Assembly (NCBI GenBank): GCA_025353305.1
Contig: JANXQX010000244.1
Coordinates: 1 to 9,882 of the forward strand
Length of the DNA: 9,882 nucleotides
Origin: Holophagaceae bacterium
GTDB lineage: Bacteria > Acidobacteriota > Holophagae > Holophagales > Holophagaceae
Reading direction: 5' to 3'
Below are positions 1 through 9,882 of this stretch, one piece after another; the first letter of the stretch is position 1; every line of letters begins with the position of its first letter. Under the pieces are notes generated by a model that was not told the origin of the DNA, did not search any database, and was given only the letters and a program-made list of their open reading frames with translations. The position numbers and the translations under genes were made by a program.

Positions 1-1827
1 GGGCGCGAAGGTCGCGGCACATCCCAATGTCCGTAGATCCGCCACCAGATCCGCACTGGAGACGTCCCTCGTAGTGGTACCGCCGGCGTAGAAAGCCTCC
101 AGCATCCAGAGCTGATCCGTGGAAGCCAATTCCGCTGCGAACGTTTCCACCAGTTCGGCACGCAGGAAACGCAGGGGGCCGAAACCGTGGGGCTGGAAAA
201 CGGCCAGCACCCGGCCTACCCGCAGGTGCGCGGTACGCAAAGACGCGGCGATCTTTGCAGGGTTGTGACCGAAATCGTCAACCACCGTGATCCCTCTTGA
301 TTCACCCAGCACCTGGAAGCGTCGCCTGACACCCTTGAAATCGCGCAGGGCCGCGACCAGATCTCCCATGGGGACACCCAGAACCCGGCATACCGCGAAG
401 GCGGCCAAAGCATTCTCCACGTTGTGAAGGCCGGGAACATTCAATTCAAACGAAAGGTCTTCCACGCTGAAGCGAGAGGAGCCTGGTCCGGCATCCACCT
501 GTTCCGCCCGTATCTGGACCCCTTGTCCGAAGCCAAAAACAGTTGCCTCTTCGCGGAATTCCGAAAGATTTACAGCCTCGCCAAGCACCAAGGATTCACC
601 GATGTTGTGTACGAACTCGCGAAACATCCCGGCCACCACAGCCTCATCCTTGTGGTCTTTCTGCAGGTTCAATACCACGCCGACCGCAGGGTGGTAGCGC
701 ACCACGCTCCCATCGCTTTCGTCCGCCTCGATGACAAGCACATCCGATGCGCCCGCCCATGCGTTGCCGATAAGGCCTTCGTTTTGCAGGATTCGCAGAT
801 CCCCGCCGGTGATAACGCTAGGGTTTCGGCCCGCACTCCGCAGCAGCTCGAAGATCATGGCGGTGGTGGTGGACTTGCCACTGGTGCCTGTGACCGCCAC
901 GGTGCGGTGGGTGGCCGTGAAGCGGGCCAGCAATTCAGAACGGTGCAAAATGGGCACGCCCAGGGCACGGGCCGTAGCCACGTCCGGCACCGTGTCCTCA
1001 ACGGCGGTGGAGACGATAAGCGCAGCGCAGTCGCCCTTCAGCCCGCTTCCGTCTTGGGGATGGATTTTCACGCCCAGAGCTTCGAGTTTCCGTCGGGCAT
1101 TCCCTTGTTGATTCCGGTCGAAGGCCCGATCGCTGCCGCTCGCCTGGCCGCCCTTCATCACAACGAACTGCGCCAGAGCGCTCATGCCGCTTCCCGCCAC
1201 GCCAGCGAAATGCAGGCGGCCCAAACCAAGACCATCCGGCAGGTCCCGGTCCGCCACCACCAGCGCATCGCCTTCCCGGACCAGATCGAAGAGCTCCGTC
1301 ACATCGCAATTCGACAGGCGGATGCAACCGTGCGAAACCGGCTGTCCCAGCAAATGCTCCTGATTCGTGCCGTGCAGGTAGATGAGGCGATCCAGTGAAT
1401 CCACCCCCGGTCCTTTATTAATGCCTTCTTCCAATCCTTCCAGCGTGAGCACACGGGTGAGGATCAGATCCTCGTCTCGCGCTTCACCGCGCCACACATC
1501 GCCGGTGGGGACGCGGCTCCGGAATTGGGTGCCCGCCTCTGCTCTTAAGCCGATGCGTGCGTGGAACCTGTGCCAACCCACGGGTGTGCGAAAGGAGCCC
1601 TCTTCACAACCCAGCCCATTGGCCGCTGTCGAGATGGTAAACACGGCCTGCAGGGTGCTGTCCTTTAGAAAGCCCAAGCGCTGGCGGAATGGATCCACGA
1701 CAACCAGAGCATTCGGCAATTCACTGAAAGGCGAAACCGGACGCTTCAGCGCCTCCAAAGCCAAGGCCCTGAATCGCGCGACCAGAACGGGATCGAAGGG
1801 GAGTATTCTCATTCTCCAATGATCCAT
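1..1827 (-). CDS. YkuD (L,D-transpeptidase/carboxypeptidase)-Mur ligase fusion protein, C-terminus cut by window edge
   Basis: I translated this strand codon by codon: 609 residues are open from ATG 1827 to the window edge, with no stop or frameshift. The N-terminal part (about residues 40-190) is a YkuD domain: HGTN at 152-155 and SHGCIRL at 165-171, with C168 as the catalytic cysteine. From about residue 203 a MurC/Mpl-type ligase follows. It has a Rossmann-like start (HFAGVAGSGMS, 206-216), the ATP loop GTSGKSTT (314-321), EADESD (367-372), then VVDDFGHNP (515-523) in the third domain. The first 30 residues show no signal peptide or membrane segment, so the protein should be cytosolic. I infer that the YkuD part trims the terminal D-Ala from a murein tetrapeptide and the ligase part attaches the tripeptide, or L-Ala, to UDP-MurNAc. 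MurC and Mpl cannot be separated from this fragment. ATG 1812 is a possible internal start. The ribosome binding site at 1827 is weak. Confidence 0.88.
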   Translation of the reverse strand, partial: MDHWRMRILPFDPVLVARFRALALEALKRPVSPFSELPNALVVVDPFRQRLGFLKDSTLQAVFTISTAANGLGCEEGSFRTPVGWHRFHARIGLRAEAGTQFRSRVPTGDVWRGEARDEDLILTRVLTLEGLEEGINKGPGVDSLDRLIYLHGTNQEHLLGQPVSHGCIRLSNCDVTELFDLVREGDALVVADRDLPDGLGLGRLHFAGVAGSGMSALAQFVVMKGGQASGSDRAFDRNQQGNARRKLEALGVKIHPQDGSGLKGDCAALIVSTAVEDTVPDVATARALGVPILHRSELLARFTATHRTVAVTGTSGKSTTTAMIFELLRSAGRNPSVITGGDLRILQNEGLIGNAWAGASDVLVIEADESDGSVVRYHPAVGVVLNLQKDHKDEAVVAGMFREFVHNIGESLVLGEAVNLSEFREEATVFGFGQGVQIRAEQVDAGPGSSRFSVEDLSFELNVPGLHNVENALAAFAVCRVLGVPMGDLVAALRDFKGVRRRFQVLGESRGITVVDDFGHNPAKIAASLRTAHLRVGRVLAVFQPHGFGPLRFLRAELVETFAAELASTDQLWMLEAFYAGGTTTRDVSSADLVADLRTLGCAATFAP

Positions 1828-1926
1828 TGAACCTGAAGATTCCGGTGCGGTCAGGGTGAGAACGGTTCGTGACGCAAGGCACACCAAACCCGACCCATCC
1901 TGGGATCACCCATTAGGGAGGTTGAG

Positions 1927-2148
1927 ATGTCGGTGCCCCATGAAGCCCTCCTGCTGGATGCCCTTCGCAGCCTGCCGGCCGAACGGCAGGAAGCCTTGGC
2001 CAGGTCCTGCATCGAGTTGCTGACCCTCACCGCCCACCATGAAAACTGCCCCGGCATCGGGGTGGATGGATTCCCCTGCATGTACCCCCAGGACACTTGT
2101 GAGCACTGCCATGACCTGGTGACGACCTTCGTGGCGCTGGGCAAATAG
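1927..2148 (+). CDS. Small Cys/His-rich protein of unknown function (73 aa)
   Basis: I do not recognise this protein. A strong ribosome binding site, GGGAGG (1916-1921), sits 5 bases before the ATG, which is the main reason to believe it is real. The first 35 residues look like amphipathic helix. The second half carries five cysteines (C28, C41, C51, C58, C61) and H37, H38, H60 and H62, spaced like a metal-binding knuckle. C58-E-H-C61-H62 matches the haem c motif CxxCH, but there is no signal peptide, so zinc or iron-sulfur binding is more plausible than haem. It diverges from the YkuD-Mur fusion and lies 131 bp upstream of the oxidoreductase operon on the same strand. Co-transcription with that operon is possible but not shown. 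Overlapping minus-strand frames here have no comparable ribosome binding site. Confidence 0.6.
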   Translation: MSVPHEALLLDALRSLPAERQEALARSCIELLTLTAHHENCPGIGVDGFPCMYPQDTCEHCHDLVTTFVALGK

Positions 2149-2240
2149 ATTCAGATTTCAGAGCTCGGAAATTCGGCGCAACCCCAAAGCTATGACAGCG
2201 TCGGCGATCAATGAATACGCCGTTGTGACTCCATGCACAG

Positions 2241-2265
2241 ACCCAAGGTATGAACCTTGAGGGGT
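2241..2265 (+). promoter_or_regulatory. Inverted repeat/hairpin just upstream of the oxidoreductase operon RBS
   Basis: CAAGGT (2244-2249) and ACCTTG (2254-2259) are perfect inverted arms around the tetranucleotide ATGA. ACCC (2241-2244) can also pair with GGGT (2262-2265) if a short bulge is allowed. The structure ends 3 bases before the GGAG ribosome binding site (2269-2272). It could be an operator or an RNA hairpin that affects translation of the first gene. The sequence alone does not decide between these. Confidence 0.3.
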
Positions 2266-2279
2266 ACCGGAGAACCGCC

Positions 2280-3722
2280 ATGGCGACGACGACATCAACC
2301 CGACCCAAACCTTTTTTAGAGGCTGAGTATTGCAAGGGCTGCCTGCGTTGCATCGACGCCTGCGCCAAGGACTGCATCACCCAGGGGGACCAGGTCAACC
2401 CTGGCACCGGGATGGTTCCCGTCATCCTGGATCTGGAGAATTGCAATGGTTGCCAGCTTTGCATCCAGGCCTGCCCCGAACCCTATGGCCTGAGGCCCCA
2501 AGTGGCGCCGGAGGTTGACGGCGGGGATTTCGAGCTGGAAGATCCAGCCGCCCTCTTCGGACCCAGAGCCGATCATTTGGTAGCGCCCCTGGATCATCCA
2601 GCGACGGAAGTCCCCATCCCAGCCTGCGAACCCCTGATGTTGAAGGGCACATACGCATCGGCCATCGGGGCCCTGCTGGCGGGTTGCCGCCATGTCTTCG
2701 GCTATCCCATCACCCCTTCCACCGAAGGGGCCGAACTCATGTCCAAGATCCTGCCCAAGCTCGACGGCGCCTTCGTGCAGGCTGTCAGCGAGGTTGCCGC
2801 GGTGAACATGATGTACGGCTGTGGAGGGGCCGGATTGCCCTGCGCGACTTTCACCAGCAGCCCTGGCTTCAGTCTGATGCTGGAGGGCATCAGCTACATG
2901 ATCGGCGCTGAAATTCCTGGCGTTTTTGTGAATATCATGCGGGGCGGCCCAGGACTCGGAAACATCGCGCCCGAGCAGGCCGACATCAAGCTGGCCTGCC
3001 GCGGCCTCGGCCATGGGAATACGCACGGCATCGTGCTGGCGCCTTCCACACCCCAGGAAATGCTCGATGTGACACGCCTCGCCTTTGAACTGAGTTTCCG
3101 CTACCGCAATCCGGTGGTGATCCTCGGGGACGGCTATCTGGGCCAAATGACCGGAGTGGTGCGCCTGCCCGATACTTTGACTCAGCCGGGCCTGCCCGCC
3201 TGGGCGGTCTGGGGCGACCTGGAACATCGCCGCAACCTCATCAGCTCGATCCTTATCACCGAGGTGGAGTTGGAGGCTCACAACATCCACTTGAATGAGA
3301 AGTACGCCGAAATCGAAGCGAAGGAACAACGGGCCGATCTTTATCGCTGTGACGATGCCGACATCATCCTGGTGGCCTGCAACACCCCGGCCCGCATGGC
3401 AAAGGGCGCCGTGGAAGTCATGCGTGAACAAGGCGTGAAAGCCGGACTGTTCCGCCCCATCACGCTGTGGCCCTTCCCCATCGATGCGTTCAAGCCGCTG
3501 CTGTCCCACGCGAAACGGATCATCGTGGTGGAGGCCAGCCCCGGCCAGCTCCAGGATGAGCTTCGACTCGCCCTCAGCAAGGCCGATCTGGATCATCCGC
3601 CCATTTCCTTTGTGCAGCGCTACGGTGGCAAGCTGCCGGAGCAGACTGAAATCGAGGCCCGGATCCTGAAGGAATTCCACCTCATCAAAGACGCCCGGAT
3701 GATGGAAGAGGTGAAGGCATGA
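2280..3722 (+). CDS. 2-oxoacid:ferredoxin oxidoreductase, fused ferredoxin-alpha subunit (VorB-like)
   Basis: This subunit takes part in oxidative decarboxylation of a 2-oxoacid to acyl-CoA and CO2 with reduction of ferredoxin. The protein is 480 aa from ATG 2280, which has GGAG 7 bases upstream. An in-frame ATG at 2250 would add 10 residues but has a poor ribosome binding site. Residues 15-70 are a 2[4Fe-4S] ferredoxin domain: C18, C21, C24, C28 and C55, C58, C61, C65. The alpha (pyrimidine-binding) domain starts near 120 with GYPITPSTE (141-149), followed by the family block containing RGGPGLGNIAPEQAD and a second block with VVILGDGYLGQM. The C-terminal part has FRPITLWPFP, typical of the family. 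RGGPGLG and the ADG/GDG-LGQM block resemble VorB (branched-chain 2-oxoacids) more than PorA, but the substrate is not proven. An unusual point is that the usual GNEA near the domain start reads GTYA. The stop overlaps the next start (ATGA). Confidence 0.9.
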   Translation: MATTTSTRPKPFLEAEYCKGCLRCIDACAKDCITQGDQVNPGTGMVPVILDLENCNGCQLCIQACPEPYGLRPQVAPEVDGGDFELEDPAALFGPRADHLVAPLDHPATEVPIPACEPLMLKGTYASAIGALLAGCRHVFGYPITPSTEGAELMSKILPKLDGAFVQAVSEVAAVNMMYGCGGAGLPCATFTSSPGFSLMLEGISYMIGAEIPGVFVNIMRGGPGLGNIAPEQADIKLACRGLGHGNTHGIVLAPSTPQEMLDVTRLAFELSFRYRNPVVILGDGYLGQMTGVVRLPDTLTQPGLPAWAVWGDLEHRRNLISSILITEVELEAHNIHLNEKYAEIEAKEQRADLYRCDDADIILVACNTPARMAKGAVEVMREQGVKAGLFRPITLWPFPIDAFKPLLSHAKRIIVVEASPGQLQDELRLALSKADLDHPPISFVQRYGGKLPEQTEIEARILKEFHLIKDARMMEEVKA

Positions 3723-5152
3723 GCGTCATCTATGATCACTTCGAGCGCCACTCCCACGGCGAGGGACTGAAGGGCCGATCCACCCACTACTGCCCTGGCT
3801 GCGGCCATGGGCTGGTCCATCGCGATCTGGCCGAAGCCATTGAAGCCTTGGGAATCCAGGATCGGACCATTCTGGTAAGTCCGGTGGGCTGCTCGGTCTT
3901 CGCCTACTACTACTTCGATGTGGGCAACACCCAGGCCGCCCATGGACGGGCCCCGGCGGTGGCGATCGGCCACAAGCGCGCGAATCCCAACAGCATCGTC
4001 ATCAGTTATCAGGGCGATGGCGATCTGGCCTCCATTGGCTTGGCTGAAACCATCTCCACGGCTCAGATGGGCATTCCCATCACGGTCATCTTCATCAACA
4101 ACGCCATCTACGGCATGACCGGCGGGCAGCTTGCGCCCACCACGCTCATCGGCCAGAAGACCAGCACCAGCCCCGAAGGCCGCACGGCCGCCATGGGCCT
4201 GCCTATGCGGATGGCGGAACTGATCGCCCAGTTGGACGGCCCGGTCTATGTGGAGCGCGTGGCGCTCTACGATGCCAAGCATCGGATCAAGGCCCGGAAG
4301 GCCATCGAAAAAGCGCTGCGAATCCAGGCCGAGGGCAGAGGCTATGCCTTCATCGAAGTCCTTGCGGAGTGCCCCACGCATCTGAAAATGACCCCCGAGG
4401 AAACCGAGAAGTGGATCAAAGAATGCATGGAACCCGTGTTCCCCCTCGGAGTCAAAAAGGACAGCGTGGTGGAGCCTTGGTGGGACGCGGCCCAGACACC
4501 CAATTTCGACCCGGGTAAATTCCTGGCCCTCGTGGGCGCCAGCCAGGAAGCACCCACGCGACACGCCAAGGGTTTTCCGCACCACCTGGGTGGCCACGAC
4601 ATCAGTTTGAAGCTCGCGGGTTCCGGGGGCGATGGCGCGCAAACAGCCGCCATGCTGTTGGCCCGCACCGCCATCGACGAGGGTTTCGACGCGACCAACA
4701 TCCCGAGCTATGGCCCGGAAAGCCGCGGTGGAACATCCTACGCGGATGTCCACATCGCCGAGCACGAAGTCTTGAATCCGGCCGCACCGGATCCTCATGT
4801 GCTGGTGGCCTTCAATATGCCCAGCCTGACGAAATTCGCGCCCACCGTGCGTGCAGACGGCGTGATCATTTACGATTCCACGGTGATCACGGATCTTTCA
4901 GGCCTGCCGCCCCTGGCCCCGGGAATCAGGATGGTGGGCGTACCGCTCACCCAGTTGGCCCTTGGGCTAGAACGGCCCATGGTGAAGAACATCGTGGCGC
5001 TGGGTGCCATCCAGGCGGTGACTCAACTCTTCCCGCCGGAAACCTTCCTCTCCACCATCCGCATGGTGCTGAAAGACAAACAGGCCCTACTGCCGCTTAA
5101 CGAGGCGGCTTTCGCCGCGGGCCTGCGACACGCATCCCTGACCCCCGCATGA
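3719..5152 (+). CDS. 2-oxoacid:ferredoxin oxidoreductase, fused beta (TPP-binding)-gamma subunit
   Basis: This is the catalytic partner of the upstream alpha subunit. Residues 20-250 are the beta subunit: CPGCGH (25-30), then the thiamine pyrophosphate/Mg site made of GDGD (99-102) and NNAIYGMTGGQ (127-137). From about residue 290 a second domain begins with GGHDISLKLAGSGGDGAQ and continues to YGPESRGGTSYADV. This is the gamma subunit (catalytic-domain swivel family), usually a separate gene. The whole enzyme is therefore encoded in two chains: ferredoxin-alpha and beta-gamma. The start overlaps the upstream stop by 4 bases, with GAGG at 3708-3711 as ribosome binding site, and the stop overlaps the next start the same way. 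Translational coupling and equal stoichiometry are expected. The substrate is unknown. Branched-chain or aryl 2-oxoacids are my best guesses from neighbours and the alpha chain. Confidence 0.9.
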   Translation: MSVIYDHFERHSHGEGLKGRSTHYCPGCGHGLVHRDLAEAIEALGIQDRTILVSPVGCSVFAYYYFDVGNTQAAHGRAPAVAIGHKRANPNSIVISYQGDGDLASIGLAETISTAQMGIPITVIFINNAIYGMTGGQLAPTTLIGQKTSTSPEGRTAAMGLPMRMAELIAQLDGPVYVERVALYDAKHRIKARKAIEKALRIQAEGRGYAFIEVLAECPTHLKMTPEETEKWIKECMEPVFPLGVKKDSVVEPWWDAAQTPNFDPGKFLALVGASQEAPTRHAKGFPHHLGGHDISLKLAGSGGDGAQTAAMLLARTAIDEGFDATNIPSYGPESRGGTSYADVHIAEHEVLNPAAPDPHVLVAFNMPSLTKFAPTVRADGVIIYDSTVITDLSGLPPLAPGIRMVGVPLTQLALGLERPMVKNIVALGAIQAVTQLFPPETFLSTIRMVLKDKQALLPLNEAAFAAGLRHASLTPA

Positions 5153-7287
5153 ATCCGGCGAGCACCAGCACAGGCTTCCTTCACGAGGGAGCCTGCTATG
5201 GCCTGCTGATCCGGGCGGGCTTGAAACCGCCGCGGCACGGGTGGCTGGGGGAACCCCTGCCTTTTGCACCTGGAGAAGCCGTGGTGGTGAAGGGAATCGC
5301 GGAAGACCTGTGGCACAAGAGCGAGTTGGGTGCAGTTAGATTCCTTCAATTTGACGGCGAAGCCGTGGGATCCGCCGCCAGAAATATGCAGGCCCGGGTT
5401 GAAGCCGATGGCTACCCCTGGATCGGCGCCCTGGTCTGCGAGTGCATCCAGATGGCCACATCACCGGGCCTTCCCGCGGAAGGCTTTGCGGCACTGACCA
5501 AAGGCGAGGGAGGTTGGACCTTGGTGCTCGGGCTCGGGGGCATGCAGGCGGATGCGCTTGGCGCGCTCGCACCACCATTGCGTTGGCCCATGAGTTTCGT
5601 GAAACCTGGCGTGGCCTTGCAAGAACTGGAAGTTCATCTATTGGGTCAGGTCTGGCTCGGGACCCTGCGTGGTACCAGGCCTCTTACCACGCGGCCGCAG
5701 CTTCTGGCCTTTCTGGAAGGCCTTTGGGCAACCGCCGAATTGGCGGAAGCCGAAGGTTTGAACCTGCTGGAGCTCAACCCTGTGGCCCTGGATCCCGAGG
5801 GTGACCCACGCCCCTTGGACGGCGTGGGCCGAAGCGCTTTGACCAGCCCCGAGCGGCCCGCACCGCCCTCGGGTTTTCTGCGAGCACTGAAAGCGCCCAA
5901 GCGCATTGCCGTGGCGGGTGTTTCCAGCAAACCCGATGGCGCGGGTCGCATCATCATCGAGAATTTGAGAAACGCCGATTTGCCTCAGGGCGGTCTTCTC
6001 ATCATGCGTCCGGGCGAAACGCGATTCCTGGATCTCCCGTGTGTGCCTGATGTCGGGGCCTTGCTTCAGGCACCCGTCGATCTGCTGGTGCTCGCGTTGC
6101 CCGCGGCCGTCGCGTTGGCATCTGTCGAAACCTTGATCGAACAGGGTGGCGGAGCTTCGGTGGTGGCCCTCGTCGCCGGGGGGCTGGGCGATGGTGCGGA
6201 CACCGGCGGATTGGGTGAACGACTCAAACGAATGCTGAATGAAGCCCGCCGCGCTGGCAAATGGACCCCTGCCTTGCTCGGACCCAACTTTCTGGGACAC
6301 GTGGTCCCCTCGAATGGGATCAACACGACCTTCATCCCCGAAGACAAGTGGACGCCACCCAAGGGCGGTGGTTCCCTCGCGCTCCTGAGTCAAAGCGGAG
6401 CGTTTCTTTTAAGCCGGCTTTCCGGCAATCCTCACTTGCGTCTGGGTCTGGCCGTGGCCCTTGGTAATCAATTGGATCTGCGCCTGCCGGACCTGCTGAA
6501 GGAACTCGAACTTGATCCGGAAATCCGATCGGTGGCCGCTTATGTCGAAGGTTTCGCACCCGGTGATCTCGAAGCCACAGCCCTCATCGCCGCCCGCATG
6601 AAACAGTCAGGACGACCACTGATGATCTACCGGGCCGGCCGCACCGAAGTCGGGCAGGCGGCGGCTGCCAGCCACACCGGAGCCTTGGCGGGCGATCGCG
6701 ATCTGGAAATTGCCCTGCTCACCCGGGCCGGCGTCAAGAGCGCCCTCACCATCGCCGCCTTCGATGCGGGGCTCGCCTGGCTCGGAGCATTTCCTGGCCT
6801 GGAACCCGGCCCCGTGGCTGTCCTCACCAACGCGGGCTTCGAAAGTGTGGCTGCGGGAGATCTGATGGGCGGCGCTTTTCCGCCCGCCCGCCTCAGTGAA
6901 AAAGAGATCGGCTCGCTTCGCGAGATCCTGCGGGCCCACGGGCTGGAAAACCTTGTGTCGGCACAACTGCCTTTGGATATCACGCCCATGGCCGATGAAG
7001 CTGCCTATCGCGCCATCCAAGAGCTGCTTCTCAATGGTGATGCCAAAGTGCTTCTGGTGGGCCTCGTGCCCTTCACGCGCAAACTGGACCTCGAAGTTAT
7101 TGAACGGGCCACGGTCTTTGCCCGCGATCTGAAGTGCCTGGCGGAGCAGAGGGGAAAGGCCGCCGCCATCGTCGTGGACGCGGGTGCTTCCTACGAGCCC
7201 ATGCGCAAAGCCCTGGCGACTGGCGGGCTGCCTGTTTTCACGCGGATGGAGGAAGCGCTGGAAGGGTTGAGGGTTTTTGGCTGGTAG
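5149..7287 (+). CDS. NDP-forming acyl-CoA synthetase, single chain with ATP-grasp (beta) half first
   Basis: The enzyme interconverts acyl-CoA + ADP + Pi with acid + CoA + ATP. The protein is 712 aa, close to the usual size for fused enzymes of this family. Residues 1-235 are the ATP-grasp half, with K48, the LWHKSELGAV block (H56 matches the beta-subunit histidine) and ELNP (208-211). From about 248 the CoA-binding Rossmann domain begins (APKRIAVAGVSS). The ligase domains follow, with LGPNFLG and LLSQSGAF, then SHTGALAG, where H509 is the expected phosphohistidine. The order beta-then-alpha is reversed compared with many fused homologues, which begin with the CoA-binding half. The start is coupled to the upstream stop (ATGA) without a clear ribosome binding site. 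In context it would make ATP from the acyl-CoA released by the oxidoreductase, as in archaeal and protist amino-acid fermentation. Reverse use for acid activation is possible. Confidence 0.88.
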   Translation: MNPASTSTGFLHEGACYGLLIRAGLKPPRHGWLGEPLPFAPGEAVVVKGIAEDLWHKSELGAVRFLQFDGEAVGSAARNMQARVEADGYPWIGALVCECIQMATSPGLPAEGFAALTKGEGGWTLVLGLGGMQADALGALAPPLRWPMSFVKPGVALQELEVHLLGQVWLGTLRGTRPLTTRPQLLAFLEGLWATAELAEAEGLNLLELNPVALDPEGDPRPLDGVGRSALTSPERPAPPSGFLRALKAPKRIAVAGVSSKPDGAGRIIIENLRNADLPQGGLLIMRPGETRFLDLPCVPDVGALLQAPVDLLVLALPAAVALASVETLIEQGGGASVVALVAGGLGDGADTGGLGERLKRMLNEARRAGKWTPALLGPNFLGHVVPSNGINTTFIPEDKWTPPKGGGSLALLSQSGAFLLSRLSGNPHLRLGLAVALGNQLDLRLPDLLKELELDPEIRSVAAYVEGFAPGDLEATALIAARMKQSGRPLMIYRAGRTEVGQAAAASHTGALAGDRDLEIALLTRAGVKSALTIAAFDAGLAWLGAFPGLEPGPVAVLTNAGFESVAAGDLMGGAFPPARLSEKEIGSLREILRAHGLENLVSAQLPLDITPMADEAAYRAIQELLLNGDAKVLLVGLVPFTRKLDLEVIERATVFARDLKCLAEQRGKAAAIVVDAGASYEPMRKALATGGLPVFTRMEEALEGLRVFGW

Positions 7288-7308
7288 CGCGGTGTTTGCG
7301 GGGCATTC

Positions 7309-7815
7309 CTACATTTGAAGATAGCGATGAAAAATGCGCTTTGCCGTGGCTGGTTCCAGCAGATCGTCAACAGCAGGCACGAAGCCGAATTCTTCTTTCT
7401 CCGCGTGTGAACAAAGCTCGGTCACGAAGACAGTCCCCTTGGCGTGTAAGGTTTCCCATTCGGTTTGGCTCAGGCCATCCGGAGGGCTCAAGGCCTTCTC
7501 CACCAGCGGCTTGAGTTCCTCGACCAGATCCAGAATGACCTGGTGGTCAGCCAGAAGGAGCTCGATCATGTCCGCACCGCCCTCCCGGGCATACAAAGGG
7601 AAGAGTTCCTGTTCCTCTATAGCGAAATGATTCGGAATCTCGGTGCGGAGAGCGCCTTTTAAATCGCTCATGACCCGCCGGGCTTCCGGGCCCTGCCAAT
7701 CGGGCTGGTGATCCATGCGGTAGGACTGCATGAGTTTCTCCAGTCGGGCCAGGAGGGCCGTCACCTCCTGGTGTTCCCTGGAAAGACGCTTGCTGATTTC
7801 GAATTGGAAGTCCAT
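7309..7815 (-). CDS. Hemerythrin-like (HHE) domain protein
   Basis: A cytosolic 168-aa protein made of one four-helix hemerythrin-like bundle with a probable non-haem di-iron site. Candidate ligands in order are H15, H63, E67 (HxxxE), H91, H137 and E141 (HxxxE). There is no signal peptide or membrane segment. HHE proteins bind or sense O2 or NO, or store iron. Which applies here cannot be told. I chose ATG 7815. An in-frame TTG at 7833 would add 6 residues, and neither start has a strong ribosome binding site. The gene converges on the acyl-CoA synthetase gene with only 21 bp between stops, where I see no clear terminator. It lies 81 bp downstream of the thioesterase gene on the same strand. 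Confidence 0.85.
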   Translation of the reverse strand: MDFQFEISKRLSREHQEVTALLARLEKLMQSYRMDHQPDWQGPEARRVMSDLKGALRTEIPNHFAIEEQELFPLYAREGGADMIELLLADHQVILDLVEELKPLVEKALSPPDGLSQTEWETLHAKGTVFVTELCSHAEKEEFGFVPAVDDLLEPATAKRIFHRYLQM

Positions 7816-7896
7816 GGAAGGCTCTAAGTTCAATTACCGGCGACCCATATTTTTCATTATTTGTGAGTTATTTTAAATAAATAAATCTTATGTAAC
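7816..7896 (-). other. AT-rich intergenic spacer between thioesterase and hemerythrin genes
   Basis: This 81-bp gap is markedly more AT-rich than the flanking genes, especially 7849-7893. It could hold a promoter for the hemerythrin gene, since read on the minus strand it contains TAAAAT-like hexamers. No -35/-10 pair with standard spacing stands out. I see no GC-rich hairpin followed by T residues that would end the thioesterase transcript. Confidence 0.3.
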
Positions 7897-8316
7897 TTAA
7901 ACTCGCTGGGGCTCCAGATAAGTCATGAATTTAAGACGCCACGGCTCTGTTATTGGCACCGATCGCATGGTATCCAGCGAAACCATCACAACGGTGATTT
8001 TCTCGCGGAACCGTCTTTGGCCCTCACATTCCACGATGACATCCAAAACCATGGAACTGTTGCCGATGTGGGCCACCGAAAGCAGAAAATCCAGCATGTC
8101 GCCGTGGCGGCTGGGCGTGATGAAATTCACGTCAAGATGTACCGCTGGGATACCCAGGCGATGCTCCTCGTGGAGAGCCCAGAAGCTCACGCCGAGGCCT
8201 TGATTGAACCAATCCTCGACTGCCTCGACACACAATTCGATGTAACGCGGATAGAACACTATGCCCGCTGGATCGCAATGCGCGAAGCGGATCAGTTTCT
8301 GGCAACGGAAGATCAT
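7897..8316 (-). CDS. 4-hydroxybenzoyl-CoA thioesterase-like hot-dog acyl-CoA thioesterase
   Basis: A 139-aa single hot-dog domain that hydrolyses an acyl- or aroyl-CoA to acid and CoA. The signature HCDPAGIVFYPRY (13-25) matches the class of Pseudomonas CBS3 4-hydroxybenzoyl-CoA thioesterase, with D15 in place of the catalytic aspartate. The length is normal for the family. The start is supported by GGAGG (complement of 8324-8328), 7 bases before the ATG. The gene diverges from the benzoyl-CoA pathway genes across the shared 280-bp control region. A likely job is therefore to hydrolyse benzoyl-CoA or ring-reduced CoA thioesters when they pile up. The true substrate cannot be read from sequence, and YbgC-like short-chain thioesterases share the motif. 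Confidence 0.85.
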   Translation of the reverse strand: MIFRCQKLIRFAHCDPAGIVFYPRYIELCVEAVEDWFNQGLGVSFWALHEEHRLGIPAVHLDVNFITPSRHGDMLDFLLSVAHIGNSSMVLDVIVECEGQRRFREKITVVMVSLDTMRSVPITEPWRLKFMTYLEPQRV

Positions 8317-8391
8317 GCGAGCGCCTCCATCGGAATGCTTATGACGAATATCACATATTCACCTTTTTGACCATTAATCATCGATCCAGCG

Positions 8392-8420
8392 TTGACACTA
8401 AAAAGATAATGCGGTATTGT
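8392..8420 (+). promoter_or_regulatory. Candidate sigma-70-type promoter
   Basis: A perfect -35 hexamer TTGACA (8392-8397) is followed after 17 bp by TATTGT (8415-8420), which matches TATAAT at four of six positions. Transcription would start near 8427 and give a leader of about 170 bases before the dehydrogenase gene. Confidence 0.45.
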
Positions 8421-8448
8421 TCAACATAATAATTTTAGATTAACAATA
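8415..8448. repeat. Inverted repeat TATTGTT/AACAATA, possible operator
   Basis: TATTGTT (8415-8421) and AACAATA (8442-8448) are perfect 7-bp inverted arms separated by 20 bases. The left arm coincides with the -10 hexamer of the upstream candidate promoter, so a repressor bound here would block it. AT-rich DNA can give such repeats by chance. Confidence 0.25.
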
Positions 8449-8455
8449 AAACCTT

Positions 8456-8469
8456 ATGATATAAATCAT
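8456..8469. promoter_or_regulatory. FNR/CRP-family-like palindrome ATGAT-N4-ATCAT
   Basis: This 14-bp site differs from the FNR consensus TTGAT-N4-ATCAA only at the outermost base of each half. It is centred about 40 bp upstream of the start expected from the TATAAG hexamer at 8490-8495, the classical class II activator position. Anaerobic aromatic-degradation genes in Azoarcus-type bacteria are known to be controlled by an FNR-family regulator (AcpR). Whether this host has such a regulator is unknown. Confidence 0.4.
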
Positions 8470-8489
8470 TTATTGAATTCACTTTCAGT

Positions 8490-8495
8490 TATAAG
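8490..8495 (+). promoter_or_regulatory. Candidate -10 element TATAAG of an FNR-dependent promoter
   Basis: TATAAG matches TATAAT at five of six bases. The region 17 bp upstream (8467-8472) is not a good -35 and overlaps the right half of the FNR-like palindrome, as expected for a class II activated promoter. The start would fall near 8502, leaving a leader of about 95 bases. Confidence 0.35.
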
Positions 8496-8596
8496 TTGTC
8501 GTTTCGATTTATATTTTGACTTCGGGTAGGCCCCGGATCCGATATTTAAATATGTGGAATAACTCGTACTTGGGAAATGGTAAAAGGAGACAGCCG

Positions 8597-9685
8597 TTGA
8601 GCAGCATAGTCGAGGCACCGCACCGCTGGATGATGGCCGCTCCGGGTGCGCCCCTCGCCAAAACCGGCTTTGACCCCTTTCCCCCAGCCGGGGGGGAAGT
8701 TGTGGTGCAGGTGGCCGGCTGCGGGGTGTGCCATACGGATCTGGGATTCTTTTATGACGGGGTGCGGGTCAACCATGAACTGCCCTTGACCCTTGGCCAT
8801 GAGATCAGTGGGCGGGTGGTGGCCACTGGGGGAGGCGCCGAGGCCTGGCTTGGCAAGGCTGTGATCATCCCGGCCGTGATTCCTTGCGGGGAGTGCGAGT
8901 TATGCAAGTCTGGGCATGGCACCATCTGTCGCCGCCAAAAGATGCCGGGCAATGACATCCAGGGTGGCTTCGCTACGCATATTTGTGTGCCAGCCCACGG
9001 CCTTTGCCCGGTGGACGAAAGTCGGCTTGCGGCCGCAGGCCTGCGGTTAGCCGATGTTTCCGTGGTGGCCGACGCCGTGACCACGCCGTACCAGGCGGTA
9101 CTGCAGGCTGGGGTTAGGCCAGGTGATTTTGCCGTCGTGGTGGGTGTGGGCGGCGTGGGGGGCTACGCGGTGCAGATCGCCCGCGCCTTCGGTGCCACCG
9201 TGGTGGCGCTCGATGTGGATCAGGCGAAGCTCGATCACATCGCCGGGCATGGAGCCGCCCAGGTCTTCAACGTTCGCAGCCTCCAGGGCCGCGAGCTGAA
9301 AAAAGCCATCCAGGAATTCGCCAAGAATAATGGTCTGCCCGACACGCAATGGAAGATTTTTGAATGTTCCGGGACCGCCGCCGGACAAGAAACGGCGTAT
9401 GGCCTGCTCAACCACGGGGCAACCCTTTCCGTGGTGGGCTTCACCATGGACAAGGTCGAACTGCGCCTCTCCAACCTGATGGCGTTCCATGCCCGGGCCC
9501 TGGGCAATTGGGGGTGTCTGACCGAGTTGTATCCAGCAGCCCTTGATCTGGTACTGGATGGAAAGATTGCCTTAGCCCCCTTCATCGAACGCCACCCTTT
9601 GAGCGAAATCAACGATGTCTTTGCCGCTGCCCATGCGCACCAGTTGTCGGGACGCGCGATTCTCGTGCCTGGGGGGATGGCATGA
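8597..9685 (+). CDS. had: 6-hydroxycyclohex-1-ene-1-carbonyl-CoA dehydrogenase
   Basis: This enzyme oxidises 6-hydroxycyclohex-1-ene-1-carbonyl-CoA to the 6-oxo compound with NAD, a step after ring reduction of benzoyl-CoA. I chose TTG 8597 because AGGAG (8585-8589) lies exactly 7 bases upstream. The frame is open to 8516 without a better start. The 362-aa product is a zinc-dependent medium-chain dehydrogenase. Catalytic zinc ligands are C45, H68 and E69, and the structural zinc is bound by C97, C100, C103 and C111. GVGGVG (183-188) binds NAD, with D206 at the end of the second strand favouring NAD over NADP. The specific assignment rests on overall resemblance to Had/BamQ and on the next gene, its pathway partner, which starts inside the stop codon (ATGA). 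In Geobacter the gene is called bamQ. Confidence 0.85.
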
Positions 9686-9882
9686 GTGAAGGCCCCCTCA
9701 AGGTCTGGCTGGAGAAGGATGAAACCATGTTACGCCTTCGTCTGGCCCGCCCCAAGGCGAACATCGTGGATGCCGCCATGATCGGCGCGCTCCAAGGCGC
9801 CCTTGCCGAGCACCTGCCGAATCCCCATCTCCGCGCGGTGATCCTGGATGCCGAGGGGCCGCATTTCAGCTTTGGCGCCAGC
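9682..9882 (+). CDS. dch: Cyclohexa-1,5-diene-1-carbonyl-CoA hydratase, N-terminal part (cut by window edge)
   Basis: The first 67 residues of a crotonase-family hydratase that adds water to cyclohexa-1,5-diene-1-carbonyl-CoA, the product of benzoyl-CoA reductase. Its product is the substrate of the dehydrogenase encoded just upstream. The start [20 protein letters not shown] and the block [10 protein letters not shown] at the edge look like Dch/BamR of anaerobic benzoate degraders. FSFGAS corresponds to the crotonase oxyanion-hole segment. The ATG overlaps the upstream TGA by 4 bases, and a G-rich run (9671-9676) can serve as ribosome binding site. About three quarters of the gene lie outside the window. 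In Geobacter the gene is called bamR. Confidence 0.85.

Follow-up and report, generated by a model that had tools for sequence, protein, structure and literature searches.

What might a single protein chain accomplish that carries both a YkuD domain and the domains of a Mur ligase? The question is raised by a minus-strand gene at the start of a 9,882-nucleotide stretch of Holophagaceae bacterium DNA (assembly GCA_025353305.1, contig JANXQX010000244.1, positions 1 to 9,882; the whole stretch is hereafter the window). We propose that this YkuD-Mur ligase fusion is probably a cytosolic two-step peptidoglycan-recycling enzyme, in which the YkuD half would trim a murein tetrapeptide and the ligase half would join the resulting meso-diaminopimelate (mDAP) tripeptide to uridine diphosphate-N-acetylmuramic acid (UDP-MurNAc), perhaps with channelling from the first step to the second. 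The proposal builds on the observed architecture, its conservation, the catalytic residues, a separate MurC in two carriers, the absence of Mpl from the carriers examined, and the pairing of the same ligase with a second carboxypeptidase family.

Architecture and Conservation of the Fusion

The fusion gene is a single open frame on the minus strand (window 1-1812 from its ATG, with 604 residues inside the window), for which an alternative upstream ATG would give a frame of 1-1827 and turn Cys163, as numbered here, into Cys168. It is truncated at window base 1, with its last ~42 codons beyond the edge; a longer copy of the fusion, P0001 (646 residues), is identical to it at 603 of the 604 residues. 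All four of its Pfam domains, each on the minus strand, exceed their gathering scores. The YkuD domain (PF03734, 55.7 bits; residues 36-185, window 1258-1707) includes the codon of the presumed catalytic Cys163 at 1324-1326, within SHGCIRL, and is joined through a linker of about residues 186-198 (1219-1257, from the domain limits) to the N-terminal (Mur_ligase, PF01225; residues 200-302, 907-1215), middle or ATP (Mur_ligase_M, PF08245; residues 307-475, 388-894), and C-terminal (Mur_ligase_C, PF02875; residues 497-594, 31-324) domains of a Mur ligase, the last matched over profile positions 1-92 of 127, with the gene cut by the window edge. The three domains and the P-loop lysine place the second half in the Mur ligase superfamily. 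Its P-loop, GTSGKSTT (865-888), has Ser where the GTHGKT of MurC and Mpl has His.

The best YkuD-type NCBIfam profile for the first half is that of ElsL (NF040925, 121.5 bits, below its cut-off of 270). ElsL/LdtJ, the cytosolic YkuD L,D-carboxypeptidase of Acinetobacter baumannii, likewise has the conserved Cys and no hydrophobic N-terminus, whereas the YkuD half here falls under the family cut-off and is fused to a ligase of ~450 residues. Conservation was assessed over the 120 best-listed relatives of 6606 matches, nearly all of them full length (588-671 residues). HGTN...SHGC (His147 and Cys163) and GTSGKS (Lys313) are unchanged in all 120, and the EADESD and DD motifs are equally invariant, so that neither half looks dead. 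Within the first 60 residues the 19-residue hydropathy peaks at 1.14 for P0001 and does not exceed 1.5 in any of the 120 relatives, and thus no export signal or hydrophobic N-terminus was seen, as judged by hydropathy only.

Among the matches listed, the nearest relatives include Holophagaceae metagenome-assembled genomes (81 and 84% identity), followed by named Geothrix proteins at ~67-70%. The GTDB family of genome G002 comprises 77 genomes, one per species, and in 57 of them both halves lie in one open frame (54 as a single alignment, including G050, where the frame stops inside the ligase; in the other 3 the one frame is matched in two pieces). Four further genomes hold partial halves or halves in different frames (G017, G058, G062, and G069), one has the ligase with no adjoining YkuD (G072), and 15 have neither half, several of these being small. 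Both halves also share one open frame in all 20 fusion loci that were fetched. The original prediction, made from the window alone, of a YkuD domain and a Mur ligase in one frame and with no signal peptide is therefore confirmed, the latter within the reach of hydropathy. Of 396 genomes sampled across the phylum, 34 gave matches at E <= 1e-75, and the family search had already found every one of them; in a plasmid collection no place covered 80% of the query. Proteins under the name Candidatus Eisenbacteria (P0180, P0194, P0195, and P0204) also contain the ligase, and the tree places with these the partial proteins P0188 and P0219, which carry YkuD; a further row of this group, P0239, is named Dongiaceae. 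The shorter proteins of the Candidatus Eisenbacteria group may be unfused or have a misplaced start, either being possible.

The Ligase Half Forms a Third Clade

By its sequence the ligase half belongs with neither MurC nor Mpl and falls in a third clade (Shimodaira-Hasegawa-like approximate likelihood ratio test support of 100). The MurC grouping in the same tree is weakly supported (8), which limits the claim to the split of the ligase clade from the rest. The original description of a MurC/Mpl-type ligase thus holds as to the Mur ligase and is imprecise as to the type.

The split is mirrored in the presumed peptide-side motifs, which we compared across 64 clade rows picked by script for HNP, for PHG or LHG, and for the P-loop; this selection consequently accounts in part for how well HNP and HG are conserved in the fetched loci, while the P-loop residue, YxGG, and GAR played no role in the choice. 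Arg377 and Arg380, which hold L-Ala in MurC (Haemophilus influenzae MurC numbering, as for Tyr346 below), are found in all 21 MurC rows and in none of the 64 clade rows: the window reads QPHGFGP (175-195) against QPHRYSR in MurC, with Gly and Pro at the two arginine positions. The position of Tyr346 is Phe in all 23 fusions, and of the 18 rows belonging to the phylum of the Kiritimatiellae genome G078, 15 retain Tyr. Two Mpl motifs, EPRSN (19 of 20 Mpl rows) and HHP (20 of 20), are absent from every clade row; HHP stands in all 41 MurC and Mpl rows where the window has DDFGHNPAKI (250-279). A further subfamily motif, YAGGT, lies at 76-90.

The window scores 111 bits against the Mpl model TIGR01081, under its cut-off of 388.7, and Mpl proper was rejected on cut-off, motifs, and clade. 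Against the MurC model TIGR01082 (cut-off 335.1), two full-length relatives reach 299 and 291 bits, whereas the true MurC proteins of the same two genomes reach 557 and 546; both carriers to which the family model was applied thus have a separate murC over the cut-off, and a second match spanning the ligase half at ~33-37% identity comes up repeatedly among the family genomes. A MurC isozyme was rejected on motifs, clade, and the separate MurC.

An Unrelated Carboxypeptidase Gene Beside the Unfused Ligase of Pseudomonadota and G072

Pseudomonadota contain the ligase in unfused form, at 20 loci that remain from 21 matches once G978, an ordinary MurC by motif and tree, was dropped before counting. 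At 19 of these 20 loci (all except L085) the ligase adjoins an LdcA-type S66 gene, always divergent, and either next door or with long frames overlapping, apart from one locus with a spacing of 1.75 kb. Nine of these neighbours supplied the profile by which the S66 genes were detected, and Pfam assigned Peptidase_S66 to all four proteins examined, three of the 19 and the neighbour in L067. The 20 ligases share 51-91% mutual identity and form one clade in the tree; named relatives of that in L076 come from Brevundimonas, Aquidulcibacter, and Caulobacteraceae and are labelled UDP-N-acetylmuramate--(L-)alanine ligase or Mur ligase family protein. Mpl homologs are described in other Caulobacteraceae in the available part of one Caulobacter study, in which true Mpl and the present clade are not distinguishable (PMC11980594).

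The same pairing recurs within the family. In G072 the ligase starts with its own Met and its stop is overlapped by 4 bases by the start of an S66 gene (Pfam, 138 bits), and neither a YkuD motif nor a match to its profile turns up in the 14 kb fetched. In the tree, the C-terminal portion of the G072 ligase sides with the fusions (72% identity to L091), with a placement inside the clade uncertain enough that loss of YkuD and its never having been gained cannot be told apart. In close relatives, then, one type of ligase is partnered by two unrelated carboxypeptidases, S66 and YkuD. A separate LdcA-type gene, to which the original prediction had pointed as worth seeking, is present in part: S66 occurs in 18 of the 77 family genomes. 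Around the fusion itself, the neighbours checked over 20 loci are metabolic or housekeeping genes that offer no functional clue, with an aconitase-type gene recurring at 10 of these loci and a MazG-type gene at 8 (each named from one representative).

Mpl and the Ligase Exclude Each Other in the Genomes Sampled

Mpl over the cut-off was found in none of the 77 family genomes. In Pseudomonadota it is absent from all 20 carriers of the ligase and present in 16 of 30 non-carriers (sampled from 377; Fisher p 3.3e-5), and in the phylum of G078 from all 15 carriers (of 132) and present in 6 of 15 non-carriers (of 205; Fisher p 0.017), with two further non-carriers just below the cut-off; pooled over both phyla, Mpl is found in 0 of 35 carriers, comparisons in which the tests ignore kinship and the absences are soft because many of the genomes are drafts. 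The permease family TIGR00901 (2A0125), which we take to be AmpG-type, is over its cut-off in 66 of the 77 family genomes. A second, weaker permease of the same type lies within ~11 kb of S66 in three of them (G014:C1 941097-951194, G067:C1 2375004-2385923, and G071:C1 912466-924370), possibly marking a second recycling cluster.

Ligase matches at E <= 1e-65 occur in 132 of the 337 genomes from the phylum of G078, and all 18 of the loci fetched fall within the ligase clade. G078 itself has an unfused ligase and a separate ElsL-like YkuD (50% identical to P0001) ~0.9 Mb apart. Two patterns were noticed after the fact among 40 carriers and 40 non-carriers: YkuD matches above 120 bits occur in carriers only (8/40 vs. 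0/40), and no carrier holds both such a YkuD and S66. In L067, two OppB/OppC-like permease genes, an oligopeptide-type ATP-binding cassette (ABC) ATPase, the ligase, and S66 follow one another on one strand (L067:255-7533), and in L070 an OppC-like permease and an ABC ATPase precede the ligase (L070:2631-7369); these transporter genes possibly encode a murein peptide importer.

Other Genes in the Window

Three plus-strand genes at 2250-7287, each overlapping the next by 4 bases, encode a 2-oxoacid oxidoreductase alpha subunit whose N-terminus bears a ferredoxin domain, a protein that combines the beta and gamma domains, and an acyl-CoA ligase of the ADP-forming type; in L002, too, the fusion has the oxidoreductase pair close by. 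At 8516-9685 (plus strand) follows a 6-hydroxycyclohex-1-ene-1-carbonyl-CoA dehydrogenase (TIGR03201, 589 bits), presumably part of anaerobic benzoyl-CoA breakdown, and an open frame that overlaps it (9682-9882, plus strand) leaves the window. The stretch 7501-8750, which spans a hemerythrin gene start, a thioesterase gene, and the sequence that follows, has a guanine-plus-cytosine fraction of 0.47-0.51, whereas the rest of the window lies at about 0.57-0.65.

Discussion

In light of these results, we suggest the following course of events. Imported anhydro-muropeptides would yield free tetrapeptide through AmpG, AmpD, and NagZ, as outlined in the accessible text of a Caulobacter study (PMC13046382); the YkuD half would strip the terminal D-Ala to leave the tripeptide; and the ligase half would use ATP to activate UDP-MurNAc and join the tripeptide to it, as Mpl does, to give UDP-MurNAc-tripeptide. 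Coupling of trimming and religation in one chain would avoid a dead-end UDP-MurNAc-tetrapeptide. In the accessible part of the ElsL paper, the harm that follows ElsL loss in A. baumannii is ascribed by its authors to such dead-end tetrapeptide precursors, made when Mpl reuses tetrapeptides (PMC8649774). The S66 adjacency in Pseudomonadota, the S66 overlap in G072, and the lack of Mpl in carriers speak for recycling, and they support the logic of the original prediction, in which the YkuD half trims and the ligase half religates, though not its trim-first order.

More broadly, we modestly favour the view that the ligase half represents a third murein peptide ligase class that replaces Mpl and has recruited S66 by adjacency and YkuD by fusion; its members would be the ligases of Holophagaceae, Candidatus Eisenbacteria, the phylum of G078, and Pseudomonadota. 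The ligase half would resemble Mpl in its proposed role, the return of recovered tripeptide to UDP-MurNAc, and does so in its complementary distribution among the sampled genomes, while differing in its profile score, the missing EPRSN, and its separate clade; from MurC it is set apart by a score below the cut-off even at full length, by the missing L-Ala-binding arginines, and by the separate MurC of the two carriers searched. LdcA, which adjoins the unfused ligase in Pseudomonadota, shares the presumed first reaction with the YkuD half but belongs to a different Pfam family (PF02016/PF17676) and is no relative of it; in the fusion, YkuD would take the place of this partner.

Several observations weigh against these proposals. 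By family profile the window ligase is closer to MurC than to Mpl (278 vs. 111 bits), as it is in fold comparison with solved structures, which speaks for the ligase only because ligase matches filled the lists. The YkuD and ligase halves need not share one peptide substrate. Since the Pseudomonadota ligases form one clade, their S66 adjacency may reflect a single event, and the Fisher tests and draft genomes carry the caveats given above. S66 is present in 16 of the 57 fusion genomes, with none found in the other 41. In the phylum of G078, neither S66 (8/40 carriers vs. 11/40 non-carriers) nor ElsL-like YkuD (8/40 vs. 19/40) is enriched, and S66 neighbours the ligase at only 1 of the 18 fetched loci; 24 of the 40 carriers thus lack a found carboxypeptidase of these two kinds, LdcV, a further L,D-carboxypeptidase class named in the available text of the ElsL paper (PMC8649774), not having been searched for.

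Of the competing explanations, the one that fares best is a reversed order or proofreading role, in which ligation to UDP-MurNAc would come first, with the tetrapeptide still untrimmed, and the YkuD half would trim it or exchange its last residue afterwards, on the nucleotide precursor. The step order is fixed by nothing in the sequence, and the accessible parts of earlier work report that ElsL acts on disaccharide tetrapeptide and that its loss raises tetrapeptide precursors (PMC8649774), and that Mpl takes tetrapeptide, if slowly (PMC3060825). We nevertheless regard this order as unlikely, in that the unfused ligase has a separate S66 or YkuD that would equally fit action on the free peptide, and no obligate late step is needed. 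A ligase acting on another substrate, such as L-Ala-D-Glu or a modified stem, or using a different sugar nucleotide in place of UDP-MurNAc, appears improbable: the HNPxK, PHGxxP, YxGG, and GAR motifs on the peptide side match neither MurC nor Mpl, so that the exact substrate is unreadable from sequence, but the two L,D-carboxypeptidase families and the exclusion of Mpl point to the tripeptide. If the ligase half were an extra MurC, ligating L-Ala to UDP-MurNAc with the YkuD half as an unrelated passenger, the profile and fold comparisons would be accounted for, as would the name UDP-N-acetylmuramate--alanine ligase given at source to several relatives; this reading is rendered very improbable by the separate murC and recurrent second match, the absence of both arginines from all 64 clade rows, and the company of two unrelated carboxypeptidase families. 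Finally, a chance frame or an assembly or sequencing artefact joining two genes can be set aside (a frameshift or assembly error was among the findings that the original prediction named as overturning it), for although the halves are in different frames in G017 and G069, they form a one-frame fusion in 57 of 77 genomes of as many species and in every fetched locus.

ElsL and Mpl are each known, whereas their counterparts in one chain, and a third clade of ligases substituting for Mpl, are apparently new: a literature search over titles and abstract beginnings, with subscription papers and bioRxiv-only preprints mostly outside its reach, returned neither a YkuD-Mur ligase fusion nor a third class of murein peptide ligase. 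The fusion would provide a direct test of whether coupling of trimming and ligation guards against dead-end tetrapeptide precursors. According to the accessible text of the Caulobacter study, an organism with neither LdcA nor Mpl may degrade stem peptides to amino acids, as perhaps many species do (PMC13046382). Peptide recycling is often scored by LdcA and Mpl, and a third class of ligase, often labelled MurC, would alter the score of its carriers; if the proposal is true, some bacteria deemed non-recycling for want of Mpl may recycle their peptides after all.
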